53,105 nucleotides of DNA from Oscillospiraceae bacterium. Its GTDB lineage: Bacteria; Bacillota; Clostridia; Oscillospirales; Ruminococcaceae. The position numbers and the translations under genes are program-made. Under the pieces are notes generated by a model that saw only the letters and a program-made list of their open reading frames with translations, was not told where the DNA came from and made no database searches. This document shows, in pieces, positions 39,260 through 48,601 of the stretch (position 1 is its first letter; the number at the start of each line of letters is the position of its first letter). The stretch lies in contig JAFXZM010000058.1 of assembly GCA_017541275.1 (NCBI GenBank), positions 1-53,105 of the forward strand. Direction: 5' to 3'.

Positions 39260-40012
39260 TCAGCTCAGTGTGCCGGAGACCGTGAACGCAACCTCGACCT
39301 GCTTCCAGCCCGCAAATGCGCCTGGCTCAACGATCTGTGCATTATACGTGCCGAATTCGCCTGTCAGGGGGCCCTCCGGGCAATGCGCGCCGGCAGGGAA
39401 TTCCCGGTCCCATGTCGAATAGATGTTTGCGCGGAGGTCATTGCCGTCCGGGGAGAAGGTATAGCTCCGCGCGGTCAGCGGAAGTGCCTTGCCGTTGACG
39501 CGAACCGCATCGACGGTAATGCAGAGGTCGGGGCTGGTTTTTGCGGCATCCCGTATCACAACGGCCGCATAGGAGAGGCCGCTGGCGGTCAGCTCGGCAT
39601 TGGGGTCGCCGGTTGCGGCAAAGCGGCTGCCGGGGGTATCGGCGTTCACGCGCACCGTATACTGTCCGTCGCCGGAAACCGGTACGCAGACAGCCTCCGT
39701 GCTCAGAATGGAATCGACCGTGCCGTCATAGCTGAGCAGATACGTGCCGTCGGCGATAAACAGATAGGCTTCTCCGGGCGCAGCGGCGGCCTCCTCGCCC
39801 GTGACGGCGCCGTGCGCACGCAGATCATTCGGCCGCTCATCCGATTCGTCAGCGGGTGCCGGAACAACCGGAACGGCGGCTCCGTCGTCTATTTCTGCCG
39901 CAGAATGATCTGCATCGGTGGCATTGCTGCCGGAGCTGTTTTTGGCACAGCCCGTGCAGGTGCAGAGCAGCAGTGCCGCGCTGAAAATGCGAAGCGATGT
40001 TCGGAGGTTCAT
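39260..40012 (-). CDS. Secreted lipoprotein of unknown function
   Basis: The 250-aa protein begins with a signal of about 20 residues ending in a lipobox (LLLCTCTGC), so it should be anchored to the membrane by a diacylated Cys. An acidic Ser/Ala/Asp-rich linker runs to about 80. The rest looks all-beta (GEAYLFIADGTYLLSYDG, GQYTVRVNAD, SYTFSPDGNDLRANIYSTWDREFP), like a carbohydrate-binding or sandwich domain, but no family is recognised. It is divergent from the LacI gene. Confidence 0.75.
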   Translation of the reverse strand: MNLRTSLRIFSAALLLCTCTGCAKNSSGSNATDADHSAAEIDDGAAVPVVPAPADESDERPNDLRAHGAVTGEEAAAAPGEAYLFIADGTYLLSYDGTVDSILSTEAVCVPVSGDGQYTVRVNADTPGSRFAATGDPNAELTASGLSYAAVVIRDAAKTSPDLCITVDAVRVNGKALPLTARSYTFSPDGNDLRANIYSTWDREFPAGAHCPEGPLTGEFGTYNAQIVEPGAFAGWKQVEVAFTVSGTLS

Positions 40013-40057
40013 GGTCTTGTCCTTTCGTATGGTTTGCAGGTATCAGGCATCATCTAT

Positions 40058-40086
40058 ATCATACATGGTTTGCGGGAAAAGTGCAA
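40058..40086 (-). promoter_or_regulatory. Promoter of the lipoprotein gene
   Basis: On the minus strand, TTGCAC (+ 40081-40086), 17 bp and TATGAT (+ 40058-40063). Confidence 0.75.
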
Positions 40087-40130
40087 GTGGAAAAAAGACA
40101 AAAATTTATTGTTAATTAGGCGGGAGAATC

Positions 40131-40241
40131 GGCACGATTCACAAAGTTTTTCGGCTTGAATTGTGTGAATCGGGATTGTGCCTAAATTGCACTTGAGAAT
40201 TTTGTTACTTTTGTCCTGAATAAACTACAGAGAGGACAAAA
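40131..40241. promoter_or_regulatory. Two inverted repeats in the divergent lipoprotein/LacI intergenic region
   Basis: GGCAC-GATTCACA ... TGTGAATC..GTGCC (40131-40182) forms a long interrupted hairpin. TTTTGTCCT (40209-40217) and AGGACAAAA (40233-40241) form a perfect 9-bp inverted repeat 15 nt apart. Both lie upstream of the LacI promoter, not within any gene. They may be operators or leader structures. Confidence 0.5.
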
Positions 40242-40302
40242 TCGGGATGATAGCCTGATTCCACTGAAATGAGTTATACTGAAAGTTTTTTTTCGTCAGG
40301 TA

Positions 40303-40331
40303 TTTACAAATTTATAAAGATGTGATATAAT
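40303..40331 (+). promoter_or_regulatory. Promoter of the LacI-family gene
   Basis: TTTACA (40303-40308), 17 bp and TATAAT (40326-40331), leaving a leader of about 110 nt before ATG 40449. Confidence 0.82.
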
Positions 40332-40448
40332 AAATCATAAAGTAAACTGATTCGGCGGTAAAGCCGCTGCTGTGTGAAACAATACTATTTATATACTGTT
40401 ATGATGCACATCGGCAGCAGGCCTCCGGATCCCGACAGGGGGTCAGCG

Positions 40449-41477
40449 ATGAAAAACGGAATCCGAATGTCGGATATTGCCAAGGAAATGGGCGTCAGCG
40501 TTGTCACTGTCTCCAATGCGCTGAATGACCGCGGCGGCGTCAGCGACGAGATGCGCCGGAAGATCCGTGCGCGCGCCTCTGAACTGGGCTACCGCCCCTC
40601 CGCACCGCGTGCGCCGCGCAAGGCGGCCTCGGAGATTCAGACGCAGGGCGGCAGCATCGGCATCCTGACCAGCGAGCGCTTTGCAGGCGGAAGGGGAACC
40701 TTTTACTGGTTCCTGACTGCGGGTGTCTCCAAGGAATTGATGCGCTGCAATCTCTATTCGGTCTATGAGAGCGTTTCGGAGGCGGATGAAACCGGCTGTA
40801 TTTTGCCCCGCATCGTCACCGAACGGCAGGTGCGCGGCCTGATTGTCGTCGGGCAGCTTGCGGGCGATTACCTCGAAAAGCTCGCCTCTGTGCATCTTCC
40901 GGTGCTGTTCCTTGATTTCTACGACAAGCACAGCGACATTGACGCCGTTGTGTCAGATAACTACTACGACAGCTACCTGATTACGGAGGAGCTCGTCAAG
41001 CGCGGACATACGCGCATCGGATTTGTCGGCAATGTTCTGGCGACCAGCAGCATCCATGACCGCTTCCTCGGCTATTACAAATGTCTGATGGAGCATCATC
41101 TCCCGTACCGGGAGGACTGGACGCTCGATGACCGGTTCCCGAACGGCAACAGCTTCACAAGCTGGGAGCTCCCGGAGGAGATGCCGACAGCGTTTGTATG
41201 CAACTGCGACGAAACAGCCTTCCGCTTCATCGGAGAGCTGCAAAGACAGGGTCTCCGGGTTCCGGAGGATATCTCCGTGACCGGGTACGACAACTACACG
41301 GTATCTGATATGTGCGTCCCCGCAATCACAACCGTCGAGGTCGATCTCACCGAGATGGCACATACTGCCGTGACGCTCCTTCTGGCGCGGCTCGATAACC
41401 CGCAGAAGCCCGCCGCAAGGCATGTGATTCCCGGCAGGATCGTCATGAAGCAGTCGATCACGGCCGCCCCGAAATGA
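40449..41477 (+). CDS. LacI-family transcriptional regulator
   Basis: The 342-aa regulator has the LacI helix-turn-helix at residues 6-28 (MSDIAKEMGVSVVTVSNAL) and hinge region, then a periplasmic-binding-like effector domain (GSIGILTSERFAGG, RGLIVVGQ, DAVVSDNYYDSYL, GHTRIGFVGN, PEDISVTGYDN). The ligand is probably a sugar, but it cannot be read from the sequence. ATG 40449 follows CAGGGGG at 7 nt; the in-frame ATG 75 nt upstream has no such site. No sugar genes follow it; the pilus operon begins 275 nt later with its own promoter. Confidence 0.9.
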   Translation: MKNGIRMSDIAKEMGVSVVTVSNALNDRGGVSDEMRRKIRARASELGYRPSAPRAPRKAASEIQTQGGSIGILTSERFAGGRGTFYWFLTAGVSKELMRCNLYSVYESVSEADETGCILPRIVTERQVRGLIVVGQLAGDYLEKLASVHLPVLFLDFYDKHSDIDAVVSDNYYDSYLITEELVKRGHTRIGFVGNVLATSSIHDRFLGYYKCLMEHHLPYREDWTLDDRFPNGNSFTSWELPEEMPTAFVCNCDETAFRFIGELQRQGLRVPEDISVTGYDNYTVSDMCVPAITTVEVDLTEMAHTAVTLLLARLDNPQKPAARHVIPGRIVMKQSITAAPK

Positions 41478-41527
41478 ATTTGGGTAAAACAACTAAAAAG
41501 AGACCGAAAATTTTGGCTGAAAAACAG

Positions 41528-41556
41528 TTGCAAACGCAAAATTTATATGGTATAAT
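41528..41556 (+). promoter_or_regulatory. Promoter of the type IV pilus operon
   Basis: TTGCAA (41528-41533), 17 bp and TATAAT (41551-41556) place the start near 41563, about 190 nt before pilC. Confidence 0.85.
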
Positions 41557-41562
41557 ATCCCT

Positions 41563-41753
41563 ATGGATCTATGTGTGGCTATGCTATGCCCATTTGCAGA
41601 AAGCGTAATCGGCTTCGTCCGTAACCCGTAGGACGAAACCGCTGAAGCCCTGTATGGCGTGTACTCTCAGTTGCACACGGATATACAGGAGAGGCCGGGT
41701 CGCTCCCCGGCAGTTCTCGAAAACCGGTAAAATACTTGCAGGAGGTGGTTTTT
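41563..41753 (+). ncRNA. Structured 5' leader of the pilus operon (candidate riboregulator)
   Basis: About 190 nt of untranslated leader can fold into several helices. GGCTTC (41611-41616) pairs with GAAGCC (41644-41649) and encloses TCC/GGA pairs; the same TTCGTCC segment can instead pair as a 7-bp stem with GGACGAA (41631-41637), so two exclusive forms are possible. CCTGTA (41649-41654) pairs with TACAGG (41684-41689) and encloses CGTGT/ACACG. GCCGGG pairs with CCCGGC (41694-41711). The ribosome binding site GGAGG follows at 41741. It does not fit the c-di-GMP, SAM, cobalamin or other riboswitch consensus I know. Confidence 0.5.
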
Positions 41754-42947
41754 ATGCCAATGAGTTTCGCTTATACGGCGAAGGACGCTGCGGGCAATAT
41801 CCGCAAGGGCGTCATGTCCGCAGAGGATGAGCAGGAATTTCTGGCAAGAATCCGTGAAAAGGGAATGTTCGTCACCGAGTACAAGGAACGGCAGACCAAT
41901 GTCAAAACCCTGAAAAAGTTTAAGACAAAGGATCTGGCATTCGCGACCAGACAGCTCGCAGCAATGCTGTCGTCCGGTCTGACTCTGGTCAAGGCGCTTG
42001 ACATTCTCTGCAAGGAGCAGGAGAGCGAGGCTGCTCGAAATGTCTGGCGTGATGTGTACGAGAACGTGCAGAAGGGTGAATCCTTCTCCGATGCGCTCGA
42101 AGTACACGGAAGCGTCTTCCCGACCCTGATGACATCCATGGTCGGCGCCGGTGAATCCTCCGGTCAGATGGACGTCATCATGCAGCGACTCAGCGACTAT
42201 TACGCAAACCAGAACAAAATTGCCAACACAATCAAGAGTGCGATGGTCTACCCGATCATCCTCGTTGTCATCACTATTGCTGTTGTCATCGGCGTTTTCG
42301 TGTTCATCATGCCGACGTTCACGAGTCTGTATGATGATCCGGATCAAATCCCCGGCCTGACAAAGGCAATGATGGGAATCGGTAACTTCCTGACAAAGCA
42401 CTACATCATCATCATCGGCTTCCTTGTCGCGGCGATCTTCGTGACGATTTACGCACTGAAGCTCCCGGACGTCAAGCTGAAATGGGACAGATTCAAAATC
42501 AAAGGCCCGGCTTTCGGAAAACTGGTCGTCAAGATCTATACGGCGCGCTTTGCTCAGACAATGGCTTCGCTGTATTCCTCCGGTCTGCCGATGGTCGAAT
42601 GTCTGAAGCGTTCCTCTGATACGCTGAACAACACCTACATCTCCCTCAAGTTCCGCGATATCATCGACGAGGTCAAGAGTGGTGAAACGCTCAGCTCCTC
42701 GATCCAGAGAGCCGATATCTTCGACTCTATGTTCTGTTCGATCATCTTCGTCGGTGAGGAAGCCGGTGCACTGGACGACATCCTTGCCAAGACCGCTGAA
42801 TACTACGACGAAGAAGCAGACTCCGCCGTCAAGCGTCTGTGCTCGCTGCTCGAGCCGGTCATGCTCATCGTTCTCGGTGTCATCATCGCTCTCGTCTGCG
42901 GCGCGTTCTTCCCGGCACTGTACGGCTCCTTCGAGGGTATCGAATAA
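41754..42947 (+). CDS. pilC: Type IV pilus inner-membrane platform protein PilC (GspF family)
   Basis: The 397-aa protein has the duplicated GspF fold: cytoplasmic domain 1 at about 60-165 (FATRQLAAMLSSGLTLVKALDIL, MVGAGESSGQMDVIM), membrane segments near 165-200 and 220-240, then domain 2 (FAQTMASLYSSGLPMVECL, GEEAGALDDILAKTAEYYDEE) and a final membrane segment (LCSLLEPVMLIVLGVIIALVCGAFF). It links the PilB motor to the growing pilus. ATG 41754 fits GGAGG at 8 nt. First gene of the operon behind the structured leader. Confidence 0.95.
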   Translation: MPMSFAYTAKDAAGNIRKGVMSAEDEQEFLARIREKGMFVTEYKERQTNVKTLKKFKTKDLAFATRQLAAMLSSGLTLVKALDILCKEQESEAARNVWRDVYENVQKGESFSDALEVHGSVFPTLMTSMVGAGESSGQMDVIMQRLSDYYANQNKIANTIKSAMVYPIILVVITIAVVIGVFVFIMPTFTSLYDDPDQIPGLTKAMMGIGNFLTKHYIIIIGFLVAAIFVTIYALKLPDVKLKWDRFKIKGPAFGKLVVKIYTARFAQTMASLYSSGLPMVECLKRSSDTLNNTYISLKFRDIIDEVKSGETLSSSIQRADIFDSMFCSIIFVGEEAGALDDILAKTAEYYDEEADSAVKRLCSLLEPVMLIVLGVIIALVCGAFFPALYGSFEGIE

Positions 42948-42964
42948 TTCTAATTCCGGCAATG

Positions 42965-42990
42965 TGTGCGGCGGTTCACGCCGCCGCACA
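42965..42990 (+). other. Intercistronic stem-loop pilC-pilM
   Basis: A 10-bp perfect stem (TGTGCGGCGG / CCGCCGCACA) with loop TTCACG is followed by GATGAT, not a T run. It is more likely an RNA-processing or stabilising element than a terminator. Confidence 0.65.
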
Positions 42991-43031
42991 GATGATAACG
43001 CATACTAAAAACAGAGAGGTGGATATCGCAA

Positions 43032-45682: not shown

Positions 45683-48601
45683 ATGAAACAGATTCTGGAA
45701 GAAAGGAAGGGCCTGGCCAAGAAAAAGGGTACTGTCCTGCTGACCGTCGTCGGCGTGATGATGGTCCTGATTGTATTCCTTCTTTCCACGCTGGTACTGA
45801 CAACGTCCGCAAACCGCCGATCGTACTATACTTACTATGAAACGCAGGCGCAGTATGCTGCGCAGGCAGCTCTCGACTCTGTAACAAACTCTGCATACAG
45901 CAACAAGGATTTCTATAACTGGGTTTCGCAGAAGGTGCTTTCCGGCGAGCCGGCAAAGCCGATTACGGTCGAATTCGATACCAACTCCGGCATTCAGTTT
46001 TCAGAAAATAACAATGTAGTAAACTGTATGATCGAGCGCGTCCCGGATAACTACGTCTGGGATGAGGACACAAAGGCAATTCATGCGCAGCGCGCATGGA
46101 AAATCACAGCAACCGCTTCTGTCGGCGACGGCAGAAACCGTGCAGATTACACCGTCTGCAACTACATCTACGAGAACTACCGCGCACCGGAGGAAGGCCT
46201 CAACAGCGGTATTCAGAACATGGGTCAGAGTACTGTCTACAACGGCTCAACCGATGAAGAAAGCAGTAATTTCATCTCAATCGGTACCATGCAGTTCGGC
46301 AGCGCAGCGACCTCCAACAACATGATTTATCTCGGTCCGCAGATTACTGCGACCAACAAGCTCCCGCTCGGCCGCGGCTTCTATGACGGCGATGAGCAGG
46401 TGCTCCAAAACAACAACGGCGCAATCGGAGACATTCTGATGACGCAGGGCTTCAGCTCGAATGTTGAGGTCTCCAACGAATTCCAGAGAGCAGGCGAAAG
46501 CGCGATATACTATGGCAATATCGTCGGCGGAAACTCCGGTTTCACCTCATGGTATGCCAATATTACGGATAATTACAGACCGATTGAGTACAAGGATCTG
46601 AACTTCGTCTACGTGGACGGCAGAATGGAACCCGGCAACACCAACCTGATCGTCGGCAGAAGAAACAGCGGATCGGATGTCGGAGACCCCGGCAATTACC
46701 CCGTGAACCTGTTTGTCGGCTCGATCAAGACCTCAGCCACAGACAAGACCGTTGCAGTCTACGGCGATGCCTATCTGCTCGACCCGGAGCAGGATTCTGT
46801 CTGGGACGGCTGCGACAACAAATCCGCACTGGCACAGTTCGTAGAAAACAATGTCAACGGCGCCAATGTTGACGGCGAATTGGGTGCGGCAGTCGGCGGC
46901 AACATTTACTGCATGAACAACAGCCTGACAATCGGTACCGGCGGCAAAAAGATGATTATTGACGGCAACCTCGTTTTCGCGAACAAGAGCGGAACGCTGA
47001 CTGTCGGCAACAACATCGAGGTCAGAGGTCAGATTATCTGCTCCGGTACATATGTCGGCTCACAGCCGGCAATTACCGGCGACGCTGTGAACGATTATAT
47101 CGACACGGCATATGCATATTACAACTCCAACTACAGCAACGACGTCCCGAGCAGAATCGAAACCGTTGAATGGGATGAACAAATTGATACCGGAGAAGTG
47201 GAATACGCCGGACAGGATTATGCGCCCGACCTTGAATATATTTGGAATGGCCCCGCCGGCGCAGGCTGGTATCGGAAAATATACAATATTATTCATCACT
47301 CCGAGGAAAAGACCATTACCAACGATTATTCGCTCTTCCCGTTTGCATACCGTCCTGATGAGATCTTCGAGCGGTACTACCGCTGGGATCTGAAGCAGGC
47401 TGTCAATGTCGGCCCTGCTGAAACAACCAATATTGCACTGCAGGATCCGCTCGTTCAGGAGAGTATCGCCTGCGGTCACAACTGGTCAGGCACTGAGCTG
47501 ATGACCGATGTTTACGGCAATTCCTATTATGTACCGTATACCTTCCCGTGTGATGCGGGACATAAGCTGATTGATGAGTATAAGGTCGCAAGTCCTTCTA
47601 CTGAAATCGCAAAGATCCACGAGGCAGGCTACGCTGTCTATGACAGTGAGGCAACCTTCAAAGAAGCAATGGGCAGCGCGAAAACAAAGGTCATCAACGC
47701 GACAGGTGCAGCAGGTTCTGTTCCGATCTGCTACCATGACAGCGACGGTGTTGCACGGAAGAAGGACGTTCAGAATGCGATTCTCGTATCCGAAAGCTGC
47801 GTTCTCAGAATGAGCGGCATGTCGAGAGCTGTCATTGATCCTTCTCAGCGCGCCAACAAGAATGTACCGCTGTACATCTACCTGGAGGGCGGTGCTGACT
47901 CCGGCTTCACGATTGTGGTCAATAACACAGCATCTTATGTGCTCGATGAGACTGACCCGACCCCGTATTACAATGATACAACCGGCGAGGCAAGCTACAT
48001 CGCACAGCACGGCGAAGTCGTGATTTTCCTTGACAAAAATGTGAGCCTCAATAAGGCCTGCATCGTCACGAGCGGTCTCTACGGCCATATGACGGATAAT
48101 TCAACAGACAGCAATAAGTCAGGTGATGTCTATATCGTTCAGAACCCGGTTTATCCCGGTGATCCGAACTTCGGCAGGCAGAATGCTGAAACCGATTTCG
48201 GCGATGCCTTCAAATTCGCATATGAGCTTGTTCCGAATACGATCATCCTCGGCGAAGCAAACGGAAGATACGGCGGACAGAACGGCTACTTCTGGAATGC
48301 AGAGGCAATCATGCCGACTGCGACCTTGTACAACGGTACGCCGAACTTTGTCAATATGCATCCGTATTACCGTGAAGAATGGGATTCTCTTACGAAACTC
48401 CCGAGACAATCGACTTATCTGGTCGGCATCGGCGGCTCCATGACGGATCAGGTCGGCGCAAATGACCAGTGGGCAACGATCGCCTATATCGGCGACAAGA
48501 ACCGCAAACAGCAGACAACGATCAGCTATTCTATGAACAGTTCCGACCTCGGCGCAGACAACAAGGACTATCTGCACAACAACTACCAGGGCGCAAGCTA
48601 A
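45683..48601 (+). CDS. Giant GspK/PilX-like minor pilin-like surface protein
   Basis: The 972-aa protein starts with a basic leader and a membrane helix (KKKGTVLLTVVGVMMVLIVFLL) followed by AQYAAQAALDSV. This resembles the PilX/GspK N terminus, which lacks the Glu5 found in normal pilins, as here (T at that place). Residues 100-970 are a large, Asn/Gly/Tyr-rich extracellular part with beta-rich, bactofilin-like turns (GNIYCMNNSLTIGTGG, IDGNLVFANKSGTLTVGNNIEVRGQI). Minor pilins of this type cap the pilus tip. The size, about three times a normal GspK, suggests a tip adhesin. This is inference. Confidence 0.8.
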   Translation: MKQILEERKGLAKKKGTVLLTVVGVMMVLIVFLLSTLVLTTSANRRSYYTYYETQAQYAAQAALDSVTNSAYSNKDFYNWVSQKVLSGEPAKPITVEFDTNSGIQFSENNNVVNCMIERVPDNYVWDEDTKAIHAQRAWKITATASVGDGRNRADYTVCNYIYENYRAPEEGLNSGIQNMGQSTVYNGSTDEESSNFISIGTMQFGSAATSNNMIYLGPQITATNKLPLGRGFYDGDEQVLQNNNGAIGDILMTQGFSSNVEVSNEFQRAGESAIYYGNIVGGNSGFTSWYANITDNYRPIEYKDLNFVYVDGRMEPGNTNLIVGRRNSGSDVGDPGNYPVNLFVGSIKTSATDKTVAVYGDAYLLDPEQDSVWDGCDNKSALAQFVENNVNGANVDGELGAAVGGNIYCMNNSLTIGTGGKKMIIDGNLVFANKSGTLTVGNNIEVRGQIICSGTYVGSQPAITGDAVNDYIDTAYAYYNSNYSNDVPSRIETVEWDEQIDTGEVEYAGQDYAPDLEYIWNGPAGAGWYRKIYNIIHHSEEKTITNDYSLFPFAYRPDEIFERYYRWDLKQAVNVGPAETTNIALQDPLVQESIACGHNWSGTELMTDVYGNSYYVPYTFPCDAGHKLIDEYKVASPSTEIAKIHEAGYAVYDSEATFKEAMGSAKTKVINATGAAGSVPICYHDSDGVARKKDVQNAILVSESCVLRMSGMSRAVIDPSQRANKNVPLYIYLEGGADSGFTIVVNNTASYVLDETDPTPYYNDTTGEASYIAQHGEVVIFLDKNVSLNKACIVTSGLYGHMTDNSTDSNKSGDVYIVQNPVYPGDPNFGRQNAETDFGDAFKFAYELVPNTIILGEANGRYGGQNGYFWNAEAIMPTATLYNGTPNFVNMHPYYREEWDSLTKLPRQSTYLVGIGGSMTDQVGANDQWATIAYIGDKNRKQQTTISYSMNSSDLGADNKDYLHNNYQGAS

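Follow-up and report, generated by a model that had tools for sequence, protein, structure and literature searches.

A conserved, partly folded leader before pilC in one genus of the Ruminococcaceae is a candidate cis-regulatory RNA

In LoaP-type processive antitermination, an RNA hairpin leader acts on a long operon. The type IV pilus cluster of Clostridioides difficile is under a c-di-GMP-II riboswitch according to the available part of the source (PMC11477304), and comparative genomics has yielded candidates for structured RNAs and orphan riboswitches, as the accessible portions of two studies describe (PMC11109978, PMC8632094). The words riboswitch and untranslated are absent from the available part of a survey of Gram-positive pil operons (PMC3244431). 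Ruminococcal type IV pili have been linked to cellulose adhesion, and a pilin protein of R. flavefaciens 007C ranked with the supernatant proteins that increased most on Avicel, the mechanism being unnamed in the accessible part of that paper (PMC3672088). No paper among the matches listed dealt with a pilC leader RNA in Ruminococcus.

The window analysed here is the whole of one contig (JAFXZM010000058.1; 53,105 nt) of an Oscillospiraceae bacterium whose genome (GCA_017541275.1) is given as 75.6% complete. A near-consensus promoter, matching at 10 of 12 positions, lies upstream of pilC, and the start predicted from this promoter near 41563 leaves a leader of about 191 nt up to the pilC ATG at 41754 (Table 1), in agreement with the roughly 190-nt leader that the first-pass annotation had placed between a consensus promoter and pilC. 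Promoter-like sites in a scan of positions 40000-43000 numbered 8, against 2.4 expected. Upstream, the gene of a LacI-family regulator (40374-41477) ends 79 nt before the leader; it is itself preceded by a further near-consensus promoter (TTTACA-17-TATAAT, 11/12, at 40303-40331). Genes 3' of pilC encode a PilM-like protein, two proteins without a Pfam match (E 0.001) and two with N-methylation motifs, and a prepilin peptidase gene lies beyond the pil genes on the opposite strand. A 972-aa protein of the pilus operon (45683-48601) has no Pfam match at E 0.001.

Table 1. Coordinates of the features in and around the pilC leader of the window.
Feature	Position	Strand	Basis or remark
Promoter TTGCAA-17-TATAAT, TG before the -10	41528..41556	+	Motif scan; TATAAT before 27/27 extracted leaders
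Conserved 5' core ATGGATCTATGTGTGGCTATGCTATGCCCATTTGCAGA	41563..41600	+	Alignment of relatives
P1, 5' strand AUCUAUGUGUGGC	41567..41579	+	Alignment, tree simulation, pairing probability
P2, 5' side GCCCAUUUGCAG	41588..41599	+	Alignments by eye; imperfect pairing with 41650-41658
Variable domain with the alternative stems of the first-pass annotation	41611..41649	+	Not conserved
P2, 3' side CUGUAUGGC	41650..41658	+	Alignments by eye
P1, 3' strand GUUGCACACGGAU	41670..41682	+	1x1 mismatch A41571 x C41678
P4 inner hairpin GCCGGG-UCGCUC-CCCGGC	41694..41711	+	Outer stem 41689-41693 with 41714-41718
Conserved CTTGCAGGAGGTGGTTTTT, including the Shine-Dalgarno sequence	41735..41753	+	Alignment of relatives
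pilC (T2SS protein F family)	41754..42947	+	PF00482, E 4.1e-61

The gene pilC was found in 27 of the 30 genus genomes searched. When TATAAT was sought within 260 nt of the pilC start, each of these 27 genomes yielded one leader of 130-203 nt (TATAAT to pilC start), which gives the leader the fixed place between promoter and start codon that is general to cis-regulatory leaders; a start much nearer to pilC, which would speak against such a leader, was indicated in none of them. A DNA search gave matches in 23 of the 30 genomes, the one in L024 being a chance match by reading, and short matches elsewhere in the genus genomes were discarded as chance. The named records of the group are metagenome-assembled genomes with Ruminococcus, Oscillospiraceae, Clostridiales or Clostridia titles, and ruminants and horses are frequent sources.

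Conservation was computed over 25 loci with a full pilC, 17 of which are close relatives. In the 5' core, 28 of 38 positions were invariant in the 17 close relatives, compared with 11 of 91 fourfold-degenerate pilC sites, and 8 of 38 were invariant in all 25; most relatives carry one extra base after GGCTAT with respect to the window. The stretch that includes the Shine-Dalgarno sequence had 16 of 19 invariant positions in the close relatives and 11 of 19 in all 25. Invariant positions were also found in the 17 close relatives at 41670-41682 (6/13) and throughout the loop CGCTC (41701-41705; 5/5). Positions 41607-41650 included no invariant position, and their mean majority fraction was 0.52 among the close relatives and 0.42 over all 25 leaders. 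It is in this region that the first-pass annotation had drawn two alternative stems for TTCGTCC. The local stem of TTCGTCC (41614-41620) with GGACGAA (41631-41637) is present in the window. A longer stem with GAAGCC (41644-41649) exists as well, but its partner is GGCTTC (41611-41616), which overlaps the proposed segment only in TTC. Because the segment is among the most variable of the leader (majority fraction 0.42, no invariant position), the stems do not qualify as a conserved switch, and the local TTCGTCC/GGACGAA stem was ruled out in this role.

Conservation ran unbroken from the -10 into the core, as would be expected if the 5' block were mainly a DNA element, either a downstream part of the promoter or an operator, for example of the adjacent LacI-family regulator. 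The closeness of the LacI-family gene fits such an element, as does the distribution of a strict C-terminal LacI-family motif, which turned up upstream of pilC in 17 of 25 genus loci but in none of 51 from other genera; the search used this one motif, and the remaining 8 genus loci need not lack the gene. A DNA element leaves unexplained the conserved 3' strand of P1, about 100 nt downstream, and the P4 hairpin, and we regard it as improbable. From the distribution of the motif, the regulator and the leader may have arrived together. Upstream of the -10 (41487-41556), an ATTTTGG stretch and the GTTGCA of the -35 were well conserved in relatives and form a possible regulator site.

The core opens with an ATG at the predicted start (41563), and a leaderless small ORF, reading MDLCVAIAMPICR in relatives, might act as a leader peptide coupled to pilC. 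MDLCVAIAMPICR was found exactly in 12 of 27 leaders and as a close variant in 7 more, and many relatives share the first 13 codons. The early ATG is, however, missing in 2 of 27 leaders, the ORF lengths in the 25 leaders that have it were about those expected from shuffling (lowest fraction 0.078), the ORF ends were not kept, and the window copy is out of the common frame past codon 6. With a length as in shuffled sequence and neither frame nor end conserved, attenuation by a leader peptide was ruled out as the main reading. Such a peptide is very unlikely, with a small residual probability of an effect given that the core opens with ATG.

Pairing was evaluated on A1, a structure-blind alignment of 23 of the 27 leaders. 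On A1, none of 500 shuffles equalled the three-helix structure in three of the five measures, 1 and 41 of 500 reached it in the other two, and it beat every slid version in paired cells. For P1, 11 pairs were counted and 93.7% of cells were paired; only one of these pairs changed on both sides, so that the covariation on A1 comes mostly from P4, whose outer helix was poorly aligned there (54.1%). CGCTC was contained in 25 of 27 leaders and absent from two. In 20 of the 25, a stem of at least 4 bp closes an apical loop that holds this motif, where shuffled flanks predict 1.0, and the stem sequences differ. P4 is the best-supported element of the leader. Standard pairs filled 269 of 324 P1 cells, or 269 of 299 when the mismatch position was set aside. 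When columns were re-evolved on the pilC tree, the pair count of P1 was reached in 11 of 300 simulations and its covariation score in 17 of 300, and this tree-aware support is borderline. The first-pass annotation was wrong about the helices of importance, the supported helices being P4 and, less firmly, P1. Its expectation that relatives would share conserved pairs held: helices kept despite sequence change, a general mark of cis-regulatory leaders, are clear for P4 and modest for P1. Folding energy was weak evidence of structure. The minimum free energy of the leader, -63.2 kcal/mol (z -1.16), was equalled by 26 of 200 shuffles and is ordinary for its composition, and the mean z over 25 leaders was -1.07.

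P1 and P4 might serve as a passive 5' stabiliser that senses nothing and guards the pil mRNA against 5'-end-dependent decay. P1 begins about 4 nt past the predicted 5' end, and 5' hairpins also open some other Ruminococcus pilC leaders, both of which suit a stabiliser. The primary sequence of the core and of the P4 loop, on the other hand, is conserved beyond what the stems require, and we consider pure stabilisation quite unlikely.

A layout in which a 5'-terminal helix encloses conserved stretches and a variable arm is aptamer-like. The layout of the leader, with its core, terminal helix and variable arm, resembles aptamers in this respect, and an undescribed metabolite or second-messenger riboswitch could be composed of the core and P1 as the aptamer, with P1 and a local GUGC/GCAC hairpin, which uses the same 3' strand, alternating to switch expression. 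The GUG/CAC pairing of P1 had a probability of at least 0.4 in 16 of 24 leaders, while one leader stood at 0.31 and seven were below 0.1; the leader of L129 is without the motif. The segment for the competing hairpin was found in 15 of 25 leaders, including six of the seven in which P1 hardly forms, but it was not found in the other 10, and nine of the 15 leaders that have it still form P1 with a probability of at least 0.4. The scan detected no terminator-like site on the + strand of the leader. No common pairing partner of the ribosome-binding site was found in 25 leaders; the partners differ, and the probability of the site being unpaired ranged from 0.16 to 0.71, which lends little support to sequestration of the ribosome-binding site. 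With neither a terminator-like site nor a common partner of the ribosome-binding site, both usual riboswitch platforms seem less likely. Furthermore, the leader is recognised before one gene and in one genus only. Nine GGDEF stretches in the genome are in keeping with a second-messenger riboswitch, and c-di-GMP is a thinkable signal, but the leader has no known c-di-GMP aptamer. Taken with these points on both sides, a riboswitch seems rather unlikely to us.

Searches with known RNA families bore out the earlier statement that the leader shows no known riboswitch class or core. At gathering score the leader matched nothing in Rfam 15, and 41400-41850 gave three chance-level matches (E 2.3-5.5). 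The c-di-GMP-I and c-di-GMP-II family models matched nowhere in the window at gathering score, nor in 41400-41850 at E up to 10. A search for c-di-GMP-I in the rest of the genome gave no hit, but neither did its control, and it carries no weight. R1 is a model of the leader itself. In 396 family genomes, searched with stricter filters that lose weak matches, 19 genomes had a match at E <=0.05. Seven of these were genus genomes with one site each, before pilC; six are in the training set, and G024, outside it, scored 23.4 bits. The other 12 matches lay outside the genus at 17-22 bits, and by eye 11 of them have a stretch like a ribosome-binding site, L074 being without one; nothing credible was found in the other 389 family genomes. 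R1 recovered all four genus leaders left out of training (L010, 169 bits; L017, 156 bits; L018, 68 bits; L055, 23.5 bits), two of which are near-duplicates of training rows. Across 394 order genomes, a 22-base core pattern with up to 3 mismatches matched in 6, compared with 9 for the reversed control, a chance result from a search that had no positive control, since the window is one base short of the pattern and no other genus member was included. As far as the searches reach, the recognisable leader appears limited to one genus. These results make the leader a real candidate cis-regulatory RNA absent from Rfam 15.

Outside the genus, pilC leaders were mostly short. Among 27 loci of other family genera, one of which has a misassigned start, 22 had leaders of 45-105 nt and three had no TATAAT in reach. 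Among 51 loci of more distant records, TATAAT was found in 50, with leaders of 56-107 nt; the R. flavefaciens leaders measured 59 nt in FD-1 (L149) and 60 nt in 007c (L158). Long leaders are not quite unique to the genus: L079, one of the 27 loci of other family genera, has a pilC leader of 173 nt (1325-1497), without the conserved core or CGCTC. Towards the 5' end of that leader, a long-range pairing of CGCTGCG with CGCAGCG is visible by eye. What R1 gave on other-genus leaders was limited to a 6.6-bit match in L086 and to matches of 20 bases next to the pilC start in L079 (9.2 bits), L132 and L149.

In some of the short Ruminococcus leaders (L131-L183), a URUG-like element follows a 5' hairpin that carries a one-base bulge or mismatch; by eye, the element lies about as far from the promoter as the GUGUG of the window. 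A search for bulged hairpins in 22 chosen other-genus leaders gave a shuffle fraction below 0.08 in 8 and of at most 1/300 in 3; the hairpin was absent in four (L144, L149, L159, L180), and the rest were ordinary. R2, a model of the short hairpins, found six matches up to E 10 in 39 loci. Three of them are at pilC leaders (L086, L099, L081); L086 and L099 are outside the R2 training and correctly placed, and L081 duplicates the training sequence of L136. R2 found none of eight genus loci. In the A3 alignment, which is fitted to the model and is limited in its pair counts by this, 0 of 500 shuffles reached the structure in three of five measures and 48 and 40 of 500 did so in the others; shifting the structure by 2 columns gives nearly as many paired cells. 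A shared origin of these short hairpins with P1 of the window is only a lead. Following it further, positions 41563-41682 might be an aptamer of an unknown class that senses fibre attachment through a sugar or second messenger, grown from the apical part of the short Ruminococcus hairpin, with P1 and the competing hairpin setting pilus expression; we think this unlikely.

Regulation of pilC by the leader, and likewise a riboswitch function, would be inferences from the sequence; the conserved, partly folded leader probably helps to control pilus production. The explanation we favour, and on balance believe, is that a cis-regulatory leader opens the pilC mRNA of the genus and that a trans-acting factor binds it and adjusts translation or decay. 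The folded leader would present, in order, P1 bracketing the variable arm, P4 and the ribosome-binding region; the factor would recognise the conserved 5' core, the CGCUC loop or both, and its binding would alter how the pil operon mRNA is translated or degraded. As the partner, a protein seems slightly more probable than a small ligand: the recognisable motif occurs in a single genus and before a single gene, and its conserved hairpin loop is short. The same restriction mildly favours a dedicated protein or a stability element. The pilus-operon leader of these related gut bacteria offers a small, concrete target for asking how pilus production is set.

Compared with the LoaP-type leaders, the leader of the window is likewise a hairpin leader of a long operon, but no LoaP was found above the cut-off of 125 bits in this 75.6%-complete genome, where one NusG-like match reached 75.7 bits. 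The other pilC leaders of the family (L079-L106, L131-L183) precede the same gene, some with 5' hairpins and L079 with a long leader; unlike that of the window, they are mostly 45-107 nt long, and R1 gave only the short or weak matches listed above. Like the c-di-GMP-II system of Clostridioides difficile, the window has a type IV pilus operon of the Clostridia behind a structured 5' leader, but this leader matches no Rfam family, the c-di-GMP classes included. A further likeness is to the structured-RNA and orphan riboswitch candidates, as far as the accessible parts of those studies describe them (PMC11109978, PMC8632094). The leader of the window differs from these in standing in one genus, before one gene and outside Rfam 15, and resembles them in being a conserved 5' leader with covarying pairs.
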